NCBI GenBank assembly: GCA_018675995.1
Contig: JABGWZ010000269.1
Coordinates: 1 to 64,000, forward strand
Direction of reading: 5' to 3'
Length of the DNA: 64,000 bases
Source of the DNA: Opitutia bacterium
GTDB lineage: Bacteria; Verrucomicrobiota; Verrucomicrobiia; Opitutales; Seribacteraceae
Shown here: positions 5,099-14,394 of the stretch, one piece after another
Position numbering within the stretch: the stretch's first letter is position 1
Layout: each line of letters opens with the position of its first letter
Position numbers and translations under genes: made by a program
The notes under the pieces: generated by a model
The model's database searches: none
Seen by the model: the letters and a program-made list of their open reading frames with translations, nothing else
What the model was told of the DNA's origin: nothing

Positions 5099-6526
5099 AT
5101 GAATACTAAAAACGCATCACTAACCCGCATAGGTGCCGCACCTTGGAAGTTCTTACTTCTGGCAGCAGCTTTGCTTTTTTCTTACGCCCTACCCGTTCAC
5201 GCAGATGATCATGAGGAAGCAGACGCTTCGTCAGAAGCAGCCGTCGAAGAGGAGTCTGGTCCAGTTGACGACTACAACGAGTTACTCGAAGCTCAGGGGG
5301 AATATGCTCCGGCTTATGACTTCTTCACCACATCGATGCTATGGACTGTAATTGCTGCGGCATTAGTTTTCTTAATGCACCTCGGGTTTGCCACATTGGA
5401 GTCTGGGCTTTGCCAGCAGAAAAATGTGGTAAATGTTCTCTTTAAAAATGTATTTATTATTTCCATAGGTGTGGTTACTTATGCCTTTTTTGGATTTAAT
5501 ACACACTACCCAGGAGATTTCAATGGATGGTTTAGCTGGGGAGGTATGATTGGCGATTTAAACGCAGATGGTGGAAACACTTGGGGATACGGCGGACTAG
5601 GATTAGCCATGACCGGGTTTGGTGACTTTATCTTTCAAGCCATGTTTGCCGCAACGGGTGCAACTATCGTCTCTGGAGCAGTAGCTGAAAGAGTTAAACT
5701 CGGTTCCTTTATGATTTTCGCTGTTCTTTTTGTTGGTTTTGCTTATCCGGTTGCCGGTTCATGGCACTGGGGCGGAGGTTATCTTGCAAGCCTTGACATT
5801 CCTTTCAAAGATTTTGCAGGCTCAACCGTGGTTCATGCATTTGGTGGATTCGGAGCTTTGGCATGTGTAATGGTCCTTGGACCAAGAAAAGGAAAATATA
5901 CCGAAAATGGTATCAAACCAATTCCAGCTCACAGTTTTCCGCTTGCTGCAATTGGAGTATTCTTACTCATGTTTGGCTGGTACGGATTTAACGGTGGATC
6001 AGTGCTTTCCGCAGAACCAGGTGCATTAGGTCTTGTTTTCACAACCACCACATTAGGAGCCTGTGCAGGTGCACTCGGAGCAATCGCGGTCTCTTGGTTC
6101 ATGCTCAAGAAACCAGATCTTTCCATGGCATTAAATGGTTTATTAGCCGGACTGGTTGGAATAACCGCAAATGCAGATGTAATCTCCGTCGGAAATGCCC
6201 TGATTATCGGATTAATTGCAGGTGCAATTGTTGTGGTATCAATTATATTCTTAGACAAATCCAAGATTGATGATCCAGTGGGTGCTATTTCCGTTCATGG
6301 CGTTTGCGGAATTTGGGGCACCATCGCAGTTGCCATTTTTGGTGAGGGAGATTTCTCAATGGCTTCGCAAATTCAGGGTGCAGTACTTGTAAGTGCATTT
6401 GCATTTATCTTCTCTTATGTTGTATTCTCAATCCTCAAAGCAGTAATGGGAGTACGAGTCAGTGAAGAGGAAGAAGAAAGAGGTCTTGACATATCTGAGC
6501 ATGGTCAAGAAGCATACACAAACTAA
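5099..6526 (+). CDS. amt: Ammonium transporter (Amt family)
   Basis: Multi-TM protein with ATLESGLCQQKNVVNVLFKN, conserved His in STVVHAFGGFGAL and SVHGVCGIWGT; N-terminal signal peptide. Confidence 0.94.
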   Translation: MNTKNASLTRIGAAPWKFLLLAAALLFSYALPVHADDHEEADASSEAAVEEESGPVDDYNELLEAQGEYAPAYDFFTTSMLWTVIAAALVFLMHLGFATLESGLCQQKNVVNVLFKNVFIISIGVVTYAFFGFNTHYPGDFNGWFSWGGMIGDLNADGGNTWGYGGLGLAMTGFGDFIFQAMFAATGATIVSGAVAERVKLGSFMIFAVLFVGFAYPVAGSWHWGGGYLASLDIPFKDFAGSTVVHAFGGFGALACVMVLGPRKGKYTENGIKPIPAHSFPLAAIGVFLLMFGWYGFNGGSVLSAEPGALGLVFTTTTLGACAGALGAIAVSWFMLKKPDLSMALNGLLAGLVGITANADVISVGNALIIGLIAGAIVVVSIIFLDKSKIDDPVGAISVHGVCGIWGTIAVAIFGEGDFSMASQIQGAVLVSAFAFIFSYVVFSILKAVMGVRVSEEEEERGLDISEHGQEAYTN

Positions 6527-6561
6527 TCGTTGTTCTTACACCACAATACAATCAAATATAA

Positions 6562-6912
<351 letters not shown>

Positions 6913-6948
6913 ATAAGTTTCGGCTTTTGCCGATCAAATATTAAACAC

Positions 6949-6984
6949 AAAAGACCCGATTCCTAGGAATCGGGTCTTTTTTTT
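6949..6984 (+). terminator. Rho-independent terminator after glnK1
   Basis: Near-perfect hairpin aaaagacccgattcc/ggaatcgggtctttt followed by a T tract. Confidence 0.9.
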
Positions 6985-7073
6985 ATACAATTTGTTAAAG
7001 TAGGTATCCTAGAGTTCCTCAGCCCACCTAAAACATGTATGTTATTTATTCATTTTTATAATGAATTTTAATC

Positions 7074-7090
7074 ATGGCAAGATTCTTGCA
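7074..7090 (+). promoter_or_regulatory. Sigma54 (-24/-12) type promoter upstream of amt2
   Basis: ATGGCAAGATTCTTGCA; GG and GC separated by exactly 10 nt; about 100 nt upstream of the amt2 ATG. Confidence 0.7.
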
Positions 7091-7189
7091 ACGAAGATAA
7101 TAACATGTGCAAATTCTATTATAATATTTCGATTACTTTCTCATAATTTTTAATCGTGTCGCATGCCCACCTAACAATGACTCAATAAC

Positions 7190-8581
7190 ATGAATAAGAT
7201 ACCAAGCCTAAAACTCTGTTTCCCCATTATACTATTTTTAACCTTTATTTTTTCAGGGTTTGCCCAAGACTCGAACAAAACTGAAAAGGATACAATTAAT
7301 ATTGAGAATGTCGCTGACGACCAAACTGTGGCAATTGAAGAAGAGGCGGAAACAGCAACATTGGATACGGGTAACACAGCATGGATGATTACAGCGACTG
7401 CCTTGGTTTTGTTTATGACCCTTCCCGGACTGGCTCTATTTTATGGTGGATTGGTACAATCCAAAAATGTCCTTTCAGTACTCATGCAATGTTTTGCTAT
7501 TGCCTGCTTGGCATCTCTACTTTGGGTGGTCTGCGGCTACAGCCTGTCTTTAACTCCTGGGGAAAATGAATGGCTAGGAGGTACTTCTGCCTTTTTCTTA
7601 GAAACATTAAGTTTAAATAATTTGAACGGCGACTTTCCAGAATCAGTTTGGATAATTTTTCAAATGACTTTTGCGATTATAACTCCAGGTTTGATTGTGG
7701 GTGCATTTGTTGAAAGAATCAAATTTTCTGCAGTTCTTCTATTCAGTGGTCTTTGGTTATTGGTCGTATACTTTCCTGTCTGCTACTGGGTTTGGGGAGG
7801 CGGATGGCTTGCAGAAAAAGGTGTAATTGATTTTGCGGGTGGAATCGTGGTTCATGCTACAGCTGGAGCTTCTGCACTTACACTAGCTTGGATGCTAGGC
7901 CGCAGACAAGGTTTTCCTAAAACTTTGAAACCCCCACACAACCCAGGAATGGTTATGATTGGTGCATCCATGCTTTGGGTTGGTTGGTTTGGTTTTAATG
8001 CGGGTAGTGCCGCTGCAGCCAATGAAAGTGCAGGAATGGCGATGTTAGTGACCCATATTTCTGCTGCCACTGCAAGTTTGGTTTGGATGTTCATTGAATG
8101 GAAAAAAACCGGCAAGCCAGGCTTGGTCGGAATCGTAACCGGCACCATTGCCGGCCTCGCAACTATAACACCTGCTTCCGGCAGTGTGGGTCCGATGGGT
8201 GCCATTATAATCGGAGCTTCCGCCGGGATAATTTGCTACTATGCATGTGGGTTTATCAAAGAAAAACTCGGAATTGATGACTCATTGGATGTGGCTGCAG
8301 TTCACGGAGTGGGCGGTATCTTAGGCACACTCATGGTAGCCTATCTGGGTTGGAAGGGAGAATTAGGCGGTCTCGGAATCAACCTTGGTAGTTGGACAGA
8401 TCAGCTTGTGGTTCAAGCACAGGGATGTGTTGCTGCAATTGTGATATCAGTTGTCGCAACTTATTTAATTGTAAAAATCATATCCCCACTGTTGGGTGGA
8501 AGTATTCGAGTTTCTGAAGAAGATGAAACAAAGGGGCTTGACCAAGCGCTGCATGGCGAGAATGCTTATACTCTTAAATAA
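7190..8581 (+). CDS. amtB: Ammonium transporter (AmtB-like clade)
   Basis: NTAWMITATALVLFMTLPGLALFYGGLVQSKNVLSVLMQ, conserved His in GIVVHATAGASAL and AAVHGVGGILGT. Confidence 0.94.
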   Translation: MNKIPSLKLCFPIILFLTFIFSGFAQDSNKTEKDTINIENVADDQTVAIEEEAETATLDTGNTAWMITATALVLFMTLPGLALFYGGLVQSKNVLSVLMQCFAIACLASLLWVVCGYSLSLTPGENEWLGGTSAFFLETLSLNNLNGDFPESVWIIFQMTFAIITPGLIVGAFVERIKFSAVLLFSGLWLLVVYFPVCYWVWGGGWLAEKGVIDFAGGIVVHATAGASALTLAWMLGRRQGFPKTLKPPHNPGMVMIGASMLWVGWFGFNAGSAAAANESAGMAMLVTHISAATASLVWMFIEWKKTGKPGLVGIVTGTIAGLATITPASGSVGPMGAIIIGASAGIICYYACGFIKEKLGIDDSLDVAAVHGVGGILGTLMVAYLGWKGELGGLGINLGSWTDQLVVQAQGCVAAIVISVVATYLIVKIISPLLGGSIRVSEEDETKGLDQALHGENAYTLK

Positions 8582-8601
8582 ACTATTTTTTAAATACTTA
8601 A

Positions 8602-8946
<345 letters not shown>

Positions 8947-8954
8947 GACCTTCT

Positions 8955-10784
8955 TTAAATTAGACTATTTAAAGTCCAAAGCAACCAGGCAACGGTTGCA
9001 TATAATGGAAATGCCATTGCCTGCTTCAATGTGTCCATCCATGCTCCAGGCTTAGGTAAGCGGCTTATCAACTTTGGATAAACCGAAAGCAATAGGTACG
9101 GTGTGGATAACCCAAAGGCTATACTTGTAAATACGATTATAGATGACAACCATGGCATCGCCAAAGCTGCTCCCACAGCCACACCCAGAAACGGAGCCAT
9201 GCATGGAGTGGCAACCACTGTGGCTAAAAAGCCGGAAAAGAAAGATCCCAGGTAACCCGATTTTTGAGATAACTTTCCACCCACCCCGGTCATAGACATA
9301 CCGATGTCAAAAACTCCGCTCAAATTGAGTGCAAAAATGAAAAGAAATACAGCCAAGACAAAAACGAAAATAGGCTCCTGTAGTTGAAAACCCCAACCTA
9401 TATCATCTCCAAGGCTTTCCCGCAACCCAAGCAATACCCCAACCAAAATCCAAAAAGAAAGAATCACACCAAGTGTAAAAACCACGCCATGCATCCGAAT
9501 TTTCTTTGGATTTTCTCCTGCTTGCTTAACAAAAGACATAATCTTTAACCCAATTACAGGAAAAACGCAGGGCATAAGATTAAGAATTACACCACCAATG
9601 AAAGCAAATCCAAGAATTCCCCAAAAACTGGCTACCTCAGTTTGAAAAAAAGATTCTTCGCCCTCAAGTGTATTAAGGACAATTTCAGTGGTTAAAATTT
9701 CTGGTAACAAAACGCCCTCGCTATCCGATCCATCAGACACCTGTGGCGGATGGTAAATATATAAAGGAACGCCTTCTCGTCCGTATTTTTGGAGAGTATT
9801 CAAAATGACTGGGCCTCGTTTCGTCCAGTCTGCCTGTAATGCAACCACACCCAACTCATGAAACTTCTCAATAATGGACTCTTCTTTATAAACCCGTTTA
9901 TTAATTTGGCATGATGCACACCAACGGGCGGTAAAATCAATAAATATAGCTCGCCCCTGAGAAAGTAATAACTCCTCTTTTTCAGGGCTCCATTTCTCCC
10001 AGTTGATTTGCACGCCCTTATCGATGGTCTTACCTGGGAAACCCACCCATACACCAAGAGCAAGTAGAACAAAAGCAAGCAATTTTGATAAGGTGACCGA
10101 TCTGGATGATTTAAGAATATGGCTCGTTTTTCCGTACAACCAAATACCCATGGCAACAAGAATGAGTCCAAACATAACCATTAGTTGGTTTAATCCGGTT
10201 TCAATTTCGGGGGTAGATAGAATTTGCTTAGGGGAAACTGGAGAAATTGGGTCCTGACTATCAACTTCCTTGAGATCAAAATTATTTAAAATAGTTTTAG
10301 ACGAAATTGGAATTTCCAAACGAAAATTCTGTTCATAAGGAATACAACTTTCCGGACTGCAAACTAAAGCTGAAAAAGTTCCTTTCAGAATAATTAAATC
10401 ATTTTCGAAACTTGTATTTGCAGTGGTCTCAAAATCAGACTTAAGGAAAAAGTTCCCTTTATGTACAAAGCTAATAGTGCCATCAGATTCATATGATATT
10501 GGCTTAGGAAAAACGGGATTAGATATTTGAACCCCCTTTGGAAGATCCCATTCTATAGTAGTGGGGTATCCGCTTTCACCGGCAGGGTTTGAATAAATAT
10601 GCCAACCATCAGCAAGATTCACTTCCACTATGACAAGGGATCCGTCTCCAACTTTTATACTCTTCGCTTCAGCCGTAATTGATGCATCAATGAGATCGTC
10701 AACCTGCTGGCCAAACCCGAATTGATTAAGTACACAGAAAATTAATAAATTTAATCTCCAATGAAATGAAGCCAGTCTTGGCAT
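8955..10784 (-). CDS. dsbD: DsbD-like thiol:disulfide interchange protein with rearranged domain order
   Basis: N-terminal DsbD-alpha-like (VCSPESCIP), thioredoxin-like gamma (DFTARWCASCQ), then DsbD TM core (NLMPCVFPVIGLK ... VVATPCMAPFLGVAVG). All six redox cysteines present. Confidence 0.86.
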   Translation of the reverse strand: MPRLASFHWRLNLLIFCVLNQFGFGQQVDDLIDASITAEAKSIKVGDGSLVIVEVNLADGWHIYSNPAGESGYPTTIEWDLPKGVQISNPVFPKPISYESDGTISFVHKGNFFLKSDFETTANTSFENDLIILKGTFSALVCSPESCIPYEQNFRLEIPISSKTILNNFDLKEVDSQDPISPVSPKQILSTPEIETGLNQLMVMFGLILVAMGIWLYGKTSHILKSSRSVTLSKLLAFVLLALGVWVGFPGKTIDKGVQINWEKWSPEKEELLLSQGRAIFIDFTARWCASCQINKRVYKEESIIEKFHELGVVALQADWTKRGPVILNTLQKYGREGVPLYIYHPPQVSDGSDSEGVLLPEILTTEIVLNTLEGEESFFQTEVASFWGILGFAFIGGVILNLMPCVFPVIGLKIMSFVKQAGENPKKIRMHGVVFTLGVILSFWILVGVLLGLRESLGDDIGWGFQLQEPIFVFVLAVFLFIFALNLSGVFDIGMSMTGVGGKLSQKSGYLGSFFSGFLATVVATPCMAPFLGVAVGAALAMPWLSSIIVFTSIAFGLSTPYLLLSVYPKLISRLPKPGAWMDTLKQAMAFPLYATVAWLLWTLNSLI

Positions 10785-12255: not shown

Positions 12256-12993
12256 TTAAACGATGAACCTTTCGCGCGCAACAGCCAAACCACTCAACGC
12301 AGCAGTCTCTACCCGCAATGTATTCTTCCCTAAAGTGAAGAAAGAAAAACCACTTTCCTTGGCTAAATCCTCTTCACCTTGGCTCCACCCACCCTCCGGT
12401 CCAATAAAAATTGTGATTATTGAAACCCGAGAAAAAGAGATATCTTCACACTTTTCAGCGAAAGAAGACAAACTACCAAATAGCACTACTTCCTTGTCAT
12501 CCATTTTCTCAAGGTGATTTGAAAACCTCACCGGTGTATCAAATACGGGGATCCACGGGTTTCCAGACTGCTTACAGGCTTCTCGGGCAATTTTTTCCCA
12601 TTTTTGTATTTTATTCAGAATATTGCTGTCCTTTAATTTAGCTTCAGTCCTATCCGTAAGGAGGGGAAACAAGCGGTCTACTCCCAACTCAGTTAATGGG
12701 CGGATCATATCTTCCCATCGATTTCCCTTAAGTAAGGAAATTCCCATTTGAAAGAAAGGTTTCGGCCTTGGAGCAAGCCTCTTTTCCAAAACAGCTAATT
12801 GAACACTCCTTTTAGCTACTTTTTCTATCTTAGTTTTATAAACAGCACCCTGTCCATTTAAGGCTTCAACATCGTCACCTTCTCCCAATCGTAAGACTTT
12901 GAGGAGATGATGACTTTCGACTTCATCCAAATGAATCGTACTCTCATTAGCTGCGGAAATTTGTTCAAAAAAAGTTCTGATTGTGCGGGACAT
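12256..12993 (-). CDS. rsmE: 16S rRNA (uracil1498-N3)-methyltransferase
   Basis: SHHLLKVLRLGEGD, QMGISLLKGNRWEDMIRPLTELGVDRLFPLLTDRT, IFIGPEGGWS, GKNTLRVETA. Confidence 0.92.
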   Translation of the reverse strand: MSRTIRTFFEQISAANESTIHLDEVESHHLLKVLRLGEGDDVEALNGQGAVYKTKIEKVAKRSVQLAVLEKRLAPRPKPFFQMGISLLKGNRWEDMIRPLTELGVDRLFPLLTDRTEAKLKDSNILNKIQKWEKIAREACKQSGNPWIPVFDTPVRFSNHLEKMDDKEVVLFGSLSSFAEKCEDISFSRVSIITIFIGPEGGWSQGEEDLAKESGFSFFTLGKNTLRVETAALSGLAVARERFIV

Positions 12994-13090: not shown

Positions 13091-13660
13091 ATGAGAATTA
13101 GTGGAGGACAAGCAAAGGGAATTCCGTTACATGTTCCCAAAGGTGTAAATTTAAGACCGGCCACAGAAGCAAACCGAGAAAGATTATTTTCATCCTTGGG
13201 CGAAAGTATTATCCAAGCATCTTTTCTTGATTTATTTGCCGGAACTGGATCGTATGGACTAGAAGCCATTAGCCGGGGGGCACAAGACGGAGTTTTTGTA
13301 GAGAACAATCGAAAGGCACAAAGCTCCCTCAAAAATAATTTAGCTAAGGTATGTAAAAGTGCTCATGTCAACCCAAGCTGTGGAACCGTTCAGTGCCGAG
13401 ATGTTATAGAATTCCTCAAAAATGAAAACCAATCATTTGACCTAGTTTTCCTTGACCCCCCCTACCCTTTGTTTCCAAAAATTGGAAATCTACTTTTTGA
13501 AATAATCAGGGAAAAAGAGATATTGAAAAAAGATGGTCTCCTCATTCACGAAGCACCATCGGAGGCAGATGATAATTTCACTGGATGGAAAATCCTCAGA
13601 AAAACTGGCAAAAGTAAAAGAGGGTCACCCCAGTTTCGATTCTTTCAATTATTGGATTAG
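13091..13660 (+). CDS. rsmD: 16S rRNA (guanine966-N2)-methyltransferase
   Basis: MRISGGQAKGIPL, FLDLFAGTGSYGLEAISRGA, FLDPPY motif. Confidence 0.93.
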   Translation: MRISGGQAKGIPLHVPKGVNLRPATEANRERLFSSLGESIIQASFLDLFAGTGSYGLEAISRGAQDGVFVENNRKAQSSLKNNLAKVCKSAHVNPSCGTVQCRDVIEFLKNENQSFDLVFLDPPYPLFPKIGNLLFEIIREKEILKKDGLLIHEAPSEADDNFTGWKILRKTGKSKRGSPQFRFFQLLD

Positions 13661-14394
13661 GGGTTCCAAAATTGCCCGACAACCTGACTCAAGGAAGCAA
13701 CAACAGCTGTTTCCTGCCTGAGAACTCGAGATCCCATTGAAAGCAAAGTAAAATCTTGGTTCCGTAATTGATCTCTTTCAGATTTGGACCAACCCCGTTC
13801 TGGACCAACCGCAAGTGTAAAATGATCGAATTTATTCAAAATCATAGAACAGATTGCTTTTTTACTTTCATAATTATCCATCGCTATACGACAGGATTGC
13901 CCAGGTTGAGCGATTAGGCAGTCGCTCAGATCCTTCCAAACTTCACACACAGGTATATGGGTCGAGAAAGACTGCTCAGCCCCTTTTTTAATTTTATCCC
14001 GCCACTCGCCGGTTTCCCACAACCGGCTCTTTCGGTAAGAATTTTCCGACTTATCAGCCCCAAAAAAATGTATTTCTTTCACTCCCATCGAGGTGGCTTG
14101 ATCAAGAATTTTCCGACAAGTTTGCGGTCGTGACAACCCCACAATTAAGTTGACCGGAAAGTGATCACTTGAATCACCCTCATTCCATTTGACCGACATC
14201 CTCAGAGAAACTTTCGACTTTTCAAGCAGCTTAGCTTTTCCTTTCGGACCATTTAGAACCCCTACATCCAATTCACTCCCAACCTCCAATTTTAAAACCT
14301 TAACCACATGCTCAGCAATTTTCCCGTCGATAGGAAATTCGAAAAAAGGGAGTTTCTCATCGAGAAGAATAATATTCAATTCATGCAGAGCCAA
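13657..14394 (-). CDS. RsmE-family rRNA methyltransferase paralogue
   Basis: AEHVVKVLKLEVGSELDV, LIVGLSRPQTCRKILDQATSMGVKEIHFFGADKSE, AVGPERGWS, GSRVLRQETA. Confidence 0.85.
   Translation of the reverse strand: MALHELNIILLDEKLPFFEFPIDGKIAEHVVKVLKLEVGSELDVGVLNGPKGKAKLLEKSKVSLRMSVKWNEGDSSDHFPVNLIVGLSRPQTCRKILDQATSMGVKEIHFFGADKSENSYRKSRLWETGEWRDKIKKGAEQSFSTHIPVCEVWKDLSDCLIAQPGQSCRIAMDNYESKKAICSMILNKFDHFTLAVGPERGWSKSERDQLRNQDFTLLSMGSRVLRQETAVVASLSQVVGQFWNP

Follow-up and report, generated by a model that had tools for sequence, protein, structure and literature searches.

The gene analysed here lies on the minus strand at 8955-10784 of the window, i.e., the whole 64,000-nucleotide stretch of DNA that was examined, and its open reading frame runs from ATG to stop and encodes a protein of 609 amino acids. 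On one side of it, at 5099-8946 (plus strand), there are two AmtB-GlnK pairs in tandem, an arrangement conserved across the family to which the window belongs (family f1); the transporters are only about 32% alike and the PII copies are close. On the other side lies the gene of a conserved 496-aa protein without a Pfam match (P496; 10803-12293, minus strand), which adjoins the permuted gene at f1 loci that carry type C or C0 (defined below), and further on two RsmE-like genes (12256-12993 and 13657-14394, minus strand) flank an RsmD-like gene (13091-13660, plus strand). The neighbours (ammonium transporter, PII and rRNA methyltransferase genes) give no hint of substrates. The features assigned to the gene, with the evidence for each, are as follows:

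8955..10784, minus strand: whole gene, permuted DsbD-type thiol-disulfide reductase of 609 aa (ORF, Pfam; same order intact in 30 species genomes)
10710..10784, minus strand: N-terminal signal-type segment, residues 1-25 (predicted helix 2-22; no cleavage data)
10290..10709, minus strand: alpha domain, residues 26-165, with C142 and C147 (PF11412 at 43-154; Foldseek)
10014..10199, minus strand: TM7/8 hairpin, residues 196-257, ahead of gamma (canonical TM6-to-gamma profile, TsoB profile, predicted helices)
9645..10010, minus strand: thioredoxin gamma domain, residues 259-380, with CASC at 289-292 (PF13899 at 261-346; Foldseek)
8958..9632, minus strand: TM1-6 core (CcdA-like), residues 385-609, ending in TM6 (PF02683 at 388-602; six helices)
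8955..8957, minus strand: stop codon immediately after TM6 (equivalent place in all intact type-C relatives)

Canonical DsbD consists of the alpha domain, TM1-8 and the gamma domain, in this order, and its electron route is known (PMC4460558). The Pfam scan of the window protein returned DsbD_N at 43-154, Thioredoxin_7 at 261-346 and DsbD_TM at 388-602, each of them exceeding the Pfam cut-off (36.5/25, 44.8/27 and 55.7/27.1 bits, respectively), and for comparison the same scan of a canonical relative (L070) gave DsbD_N, DsbD_TM and Thioredoxin_7. Alpha is separated from gamma by two hydrophobic segments (198-216 and 230-248), and the C terminus falls within TM6. An earlier note, made from the letters alone, had read the protein as alpha, TM7/8, thioredoxin gamma, TM1-6 and stop, with two TM segments between alpha and the thioredoxin domain; this order is borne out by Pfam and by the TM6-to-gamma and TsoB profiles described below, and the domain search returned the permuted and not the canonical order. 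The six redox cysteines which the note took to be retained are all present, in three pairs: C142/C147 in alpha, C289/C292 in gamma, and C406 (in NLMPCVFP) with C528 (in ATPCMAPF) in the core. The cysteines of core and gamma are kept in 40 of 40 rows with the same block order, and those of alpha in all 35 rows that retain this domain. The description of the protein as circularly permuted holds for the part composed of TM1-6, TM7/8 and gamma, and not for alpha, which stays fixed at the N terminus. The rearrangement equals a swap of the TM1-6 block and the TM7/8-gamma block: the TM8-gamma join is kept, the TM6-TM7 join is lost and a gamma-TM1 join is gained, and thus the criterion of circular permutation is met. 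The block order of the window protein and the homology of each of its blocks are established by these data.

The block orders of relatives were assigned by segment profiles across all fetched loci. Type A is the canonical order (alpha-TM1-6-TM7/8-gamma), type B is alpha-gamma-TM1-6-TM7/8, type C is the order of the window protein (alpha-TM7/8-gamma-TM1-6), and C0 is type C without alpha. Types A, B and C are all three rotations of a ring of TM1-6, TM7-8 and gamma, each of them without one join. In the bacterial order of the window at least 237 of the 373 genomes have a match, and in family f1 gamma runs directly into TM1 in 33 of 33 matching genomes. The search of Verrucomicrobiota for relatives of the same order, which the note had put forward as a check, found intact type C in three genera and 30 species genomes: 19 belong to g1, the genus of the window, 7 to g2 and 4, all C0, to g4. 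It also found the third rotation, type B, to which both genomes of genus g3 belong. The g4 proteins (L022-L024, L041, L042, L214; 461-463 aa) have no alpha and are a pure TM7/8-gamma-TM1-6 rotation, and the second Ig-like domain is lost in the window protein and in L004 and L047. In one g2 genome (G770, locus L218) a frameshift exactly where TM8 meets gamma disrupts the type-C gene. The break, at about base 1440-1520 of the reverse strand, separates an alpha-TM7/8 frame from a gamma-core frame, and it may be a sequencing error or reflect a real split protein. One could suspect that a chimeric contig or faulty binning scrambled the pieces of a canonical gene, as the source assembly is a draft of 293 contigs, but independent projects produced 30 species genomes in which the same order is intact and has the same neighbours (one record, AG-430-C07, has a single-cell-style name, as inferred from its title), and this recurrence at one syntenic locus together with purifying selection (dN/dS of 0.10-0.25 in four pairs, one with saturated dS) rules the artefact out almost completely.

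Type B also exists beyond f1, commonly in family f19 and in a few Puniceicoccales records; the other sampled families are, among the matches listed, canonical by match order, and those fetched are canonical. One genus of f19 (g39) contains both canonical and gamma-first types (G200 and G227 versus G356). In two proteins of canonical order (L032, L093) a stretch of about 110-115 residues, similar to the second Ig-like alpha domain of relatives, lies between TM8 and gamma and not before TM1. No type C was found outside f1 among the matches listed in the order (373 genomes) and in the phylum (388), and none was seen in the Planctomycetota sample (246 genomes); the whole-genome surveys were limited to Verrucomicrobiota and Planctomycetota, and divergent examples may have escaped. 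Ten divergent proteins of Planctomycetota (L162-L171, about 27% identity) have gamma ahead of the core, with TM7/8 weak or undetected. Since these proteins also place gamma before the core, gamma-first orders probably arose more than once. In a plasmid search, which was read for spans only, the top Pantoea match was canonical.

The phylogeny was inferred from concatenated blocks re-ordered to the canonical order (support is given as bootstrap/SH-aLRT). Type C is monophyletic (98/92), it is sister to the type B of g3 (100/99), and both are nested among type A, while the remaining type B proteins (B1) form a separate clade (100/100). The position of type C within type A shows that it is derived and that the canonical order came first. 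The AU test rejected a single clade of all type B proteins (p = 1.6e-5) and did not reject a clade uniting B and C (p = 0.148), thus gamma may have moved to the front once, early on, with a step from B to C afterwards. The gene neighbourhood is evidence independent of the tree: at the C and C0 loci dsbD lies between RsmD-RsmE-P496 and GlnK-AmtB-GlnK-AmtB. The GlnK/AmtB side is kept at the type-B locus of g3 and is absent from every type-A or B1 locus examined, some of which are short. From the tree and the common locus we conclude that types B and C of f1 are orthologues and that the change between them took place in situ; type C probably arose from, or alongside, a type-B gene at the same locus. 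The ancestor of f1 may have had type B, with the path A to B to C, or type C, with the path A to C to B.

The hairpin preceding gamma was compared with a profile of the TM6-to-gamma stretch of 64 canonical relatives, picked by position only. All 41 type-C rows, among which the window gene and some others are present more than once due to overlapping fetches, were hit by this profile at the hairpin before gamma (E from 4.5e-21 to 3.5e-12), and elsewhere in the type-C proteins its best score was -1.2 bits. A profile-profile comparison gave a probability of 99.6% (E 1e-23). In the NCBI TsoB/DsbD profile, residues 196-382 of the window protein correspond to positions 402-545, and residues 383-609 to positions 180-391. 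Taken together, the two profiles indicate that the cut lies just after TM6 and that TM7/8-gamma moved as a unit. In the alignment the TM8-gamma join of canonical relatives is retained in type C, and the linker from gamma to TM1 is short (4-6 residues between profile ends). These results also bear on a reading without any permutation, in which domain shuffling fused an unrelated two-helix anchor and a thioredoxin to a CcdA core lacking TM7/8. Hairpins are easy to acquire, and CcdA without a gamma domain is a natural independent module (PMC4460558); however, the hairpin is specifically homologous to canonical TM7/8 by profile, its join with gamma is the same as in canonical relatives, and in the tree of concatenated blocks the sister of type C is the type B of g3, in whose proteins, encoded at the same locus, TM7/8 follows TM6. 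The TM6-to-gamma profile rules out an unrelated anchor, and we consider such a fusion very improbable.

For the origin of the permutation itself we infer an in-frame tandem duplication of the TM1-8-gamma region followed by loss of the outer parts; the site of end trimming would then decide which rotation results, gamma-TM1-8 or TM7/8-gamma-TM1-6. This route remains an inference because no duplicated intermediate (e.g., TM7/8-gamma-TM1-8) was seen among about 200 loci, and 123 translated frames downstream of type-C stops contained no remnant of TM7/8, gamma or core. We consider it likely, though short of certain, that one bacterial order holds a single membrane electron carrier in all three cyclic block orders, with the change between B and C made in place at one locus.

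The earlier note had expected that moving an even number of TM segments keeps gamma periplasmic, and the topology agrees with this expectation. The TM7-8 loop has a mean net charge of +4.0 in 40 homologues (range +2 to +6), the TM1-2 and TM5-6 loops average +2.1 and +2.0, TM2-3 averages -2.4 and TM3-4 is neutral; the mean is -15.4 for the alpha stretch and -5.4 for that of gamma. These charges place gamma outside, and by the positive-inside rule and the AlphaFold model both alpha and gamma are predicted, by computation only, to be periplasmic, i.e., the thioredoxin domain is not put in the cytoplasm. The AlphaFold2 model of the window protein (pLDDT 85.6, pTM 0.71) contains eight TM helices where they were expected from the proposed order, namely 198-220 and 227-248, then gamma and then six core helices; the placement of the domains relative to each other in this model is uncertain at such a pTM. 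In the weaker, lower-confidence model of canonical L070 the same helices occur in canonical order and correspond one-to-one to those of the window protein. Foldseek matched alpha with the N-terminal domain of ScsB (6c29) and the N. meningitidis DsbD n-domain, and gamma with E. coli DsbD gamma (2fwg, 1uc7), while a PDB sequence search gave weak thioredoxin matches only.

The domains, the six cysteines and the predicted sidedness are common to the window protein and canonical DsbD/ScsB (PF11412, PF02683, PF13899; NF001419), and its TM1-6 core is about 50-67% identical to that of canonical relatives in its bacterial order. The block order differs, however, and the whole protein scores 67 bits with NF001419, below the cut-off of 330. 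Thus, of the features of canonical DsbD, eight TM segments and periplasmic alpha and gamma are met (as predictions only), and the linear order and the NF001419 score are not. Both features that define the DsbD/ScsB superfamily by content, three domains in one chain and three Cys pairs, are met. The protein belongs to this superfamily by content, and probably also by function, but neither its block order nor the NF001419 cut-off qualifies it as a canonical DsbD. Its core block is CcdA-like, but CcdA has neither alpha nor gamma and lacks TM7/8, and the definition of CcdA as a TM1-6 core without these three parts is not met. TsoB (a rhodanese/DsbD fusion selenoprotein, NF045694) is the best-scoring NCBIfam model for core plus gamma; the window protein scores 133 bits where the cut-off is 805, the profile of TsoB runs canonically from core to TM7/8-gamma, and no rhodanese domain was found by the Pfam scan, so that it does not qualify as TsoB either. 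Type B (f19, Puniceicoccales, g3 and the divergent Planctomycetota proteins) is a rotation of the same ring in which gamma alone has moved and TM7/8 still follows TM6, whereas in type C TM7/8 and gamma moved together.

A comparable case is that of VKOR and DsbB, related by a circular permutation (ABCD to CDAB) at 12-14% identity, with the ancestral order undetermined (PMC4555120). There too a membrane disulfide/thiol carrier is permuted by helix pairs, and duplication and deletion have been proposed (PMC4555120). Unlike VKOR and DsbB, the DsbD relatives are about 45-80% identical in the core, the three rotations coexist and the derived order is identified. In 2015 the VKOR/DsbB pair was called the first case in polytopic helical membrane proteins (PMC4555120), and a 2020 paper stated that circular permutations were not observed in membrane proteins (PMC7162841). 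We found no paper on a permuted DsbD, although only open-access text was searched.

We propose with high confidence that the gene encodes a transmembrane thiol-disulfide reductase of the DsbD/ScsB superfamily whose membrane-plus-gamma part is circularly permuted; that it works like DsbD is inferred, without experiment, and its chemistry is probably the ordinary DsbD electron relay. From the conserved cysteines, the topology, the models, the Foldseek matches and the known DsbD route (PMC4460558), cytoplasmic thioredoxin would reduce C406/C528 of the TM1-6 core, the core would pass electrons to C289/C292 of periplasmic gamma, and gamma would hand them through C142/C147 of alpha to periplasmic substrates. 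The alpha step is not universal, since genus g4 has no alpha. Placing TM7/8-gamma ahead of the core would leave every block on its normal side of the membrane, because TM7/8 is an even hairpin and the six-TM core stands alone in CcdA. The hairpin presumably keeps its usual packing site, for which there are no contact data.

An alternative to this proposal is that the permutation alters function, for instance the choice of substrate or partner. Gamma, which hangs free as the C-terminal domain in the canonical order, is in type C anchored on both sides, to TM8 and, by the short linker, to TM1, alpha is dispensable in g4, and the second Ig-like domain has been lost in the proteins named above. 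Against this, none of the cysteines or core motifs has been lost, there is no measured sign that constraint has relaxed or shifted, and an alpha-less form exists also without permutation (Pantoea L141, core-TM7/8-gamma only). We thus regard altered function as possible but unlikely, and retain the ordinary relay.

The permuted gene encodes the sole DsbD_TM (PF02683) match in the source assembly, which is 92% complete, and no second protein of this kind, neither a canonical DsbD nor a CcdA, was found elsewhere in it. Together with the purifying selection this suggests that the gene is probably needed by the cell. The same genome also encodes (L002, contig 76) a soluble 288-aa protein consisting of a DsbD_N alpha domain only, which is present in many f1 genomes.

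Among soluble proteins, natural circular permutation is a familiar phenomenon; in polytopic helical membrane proteins it is, to our knowledge, hardly documented. The re-ordering of DsbD blocks is a rare and unusually well-resolved natural case in a multi-helix membrane protein, as closely alignable relatives occur in three rotations within one bacterial order and the derived order is identified. For annotation it carries a warning, since whole-length DsbD models miss the permuted proteins (67 of 330 bits). The coexisting rotations make it directly testable what limits the order of co-translational helix insertion sets on a membrane protein. If our reading is true, no other natural circular permutation among polytopic helical membrane proteins is as well resolved, with both ancestral and derived orders known, and the insertion order of DsbD helices would not be fixed by folding.
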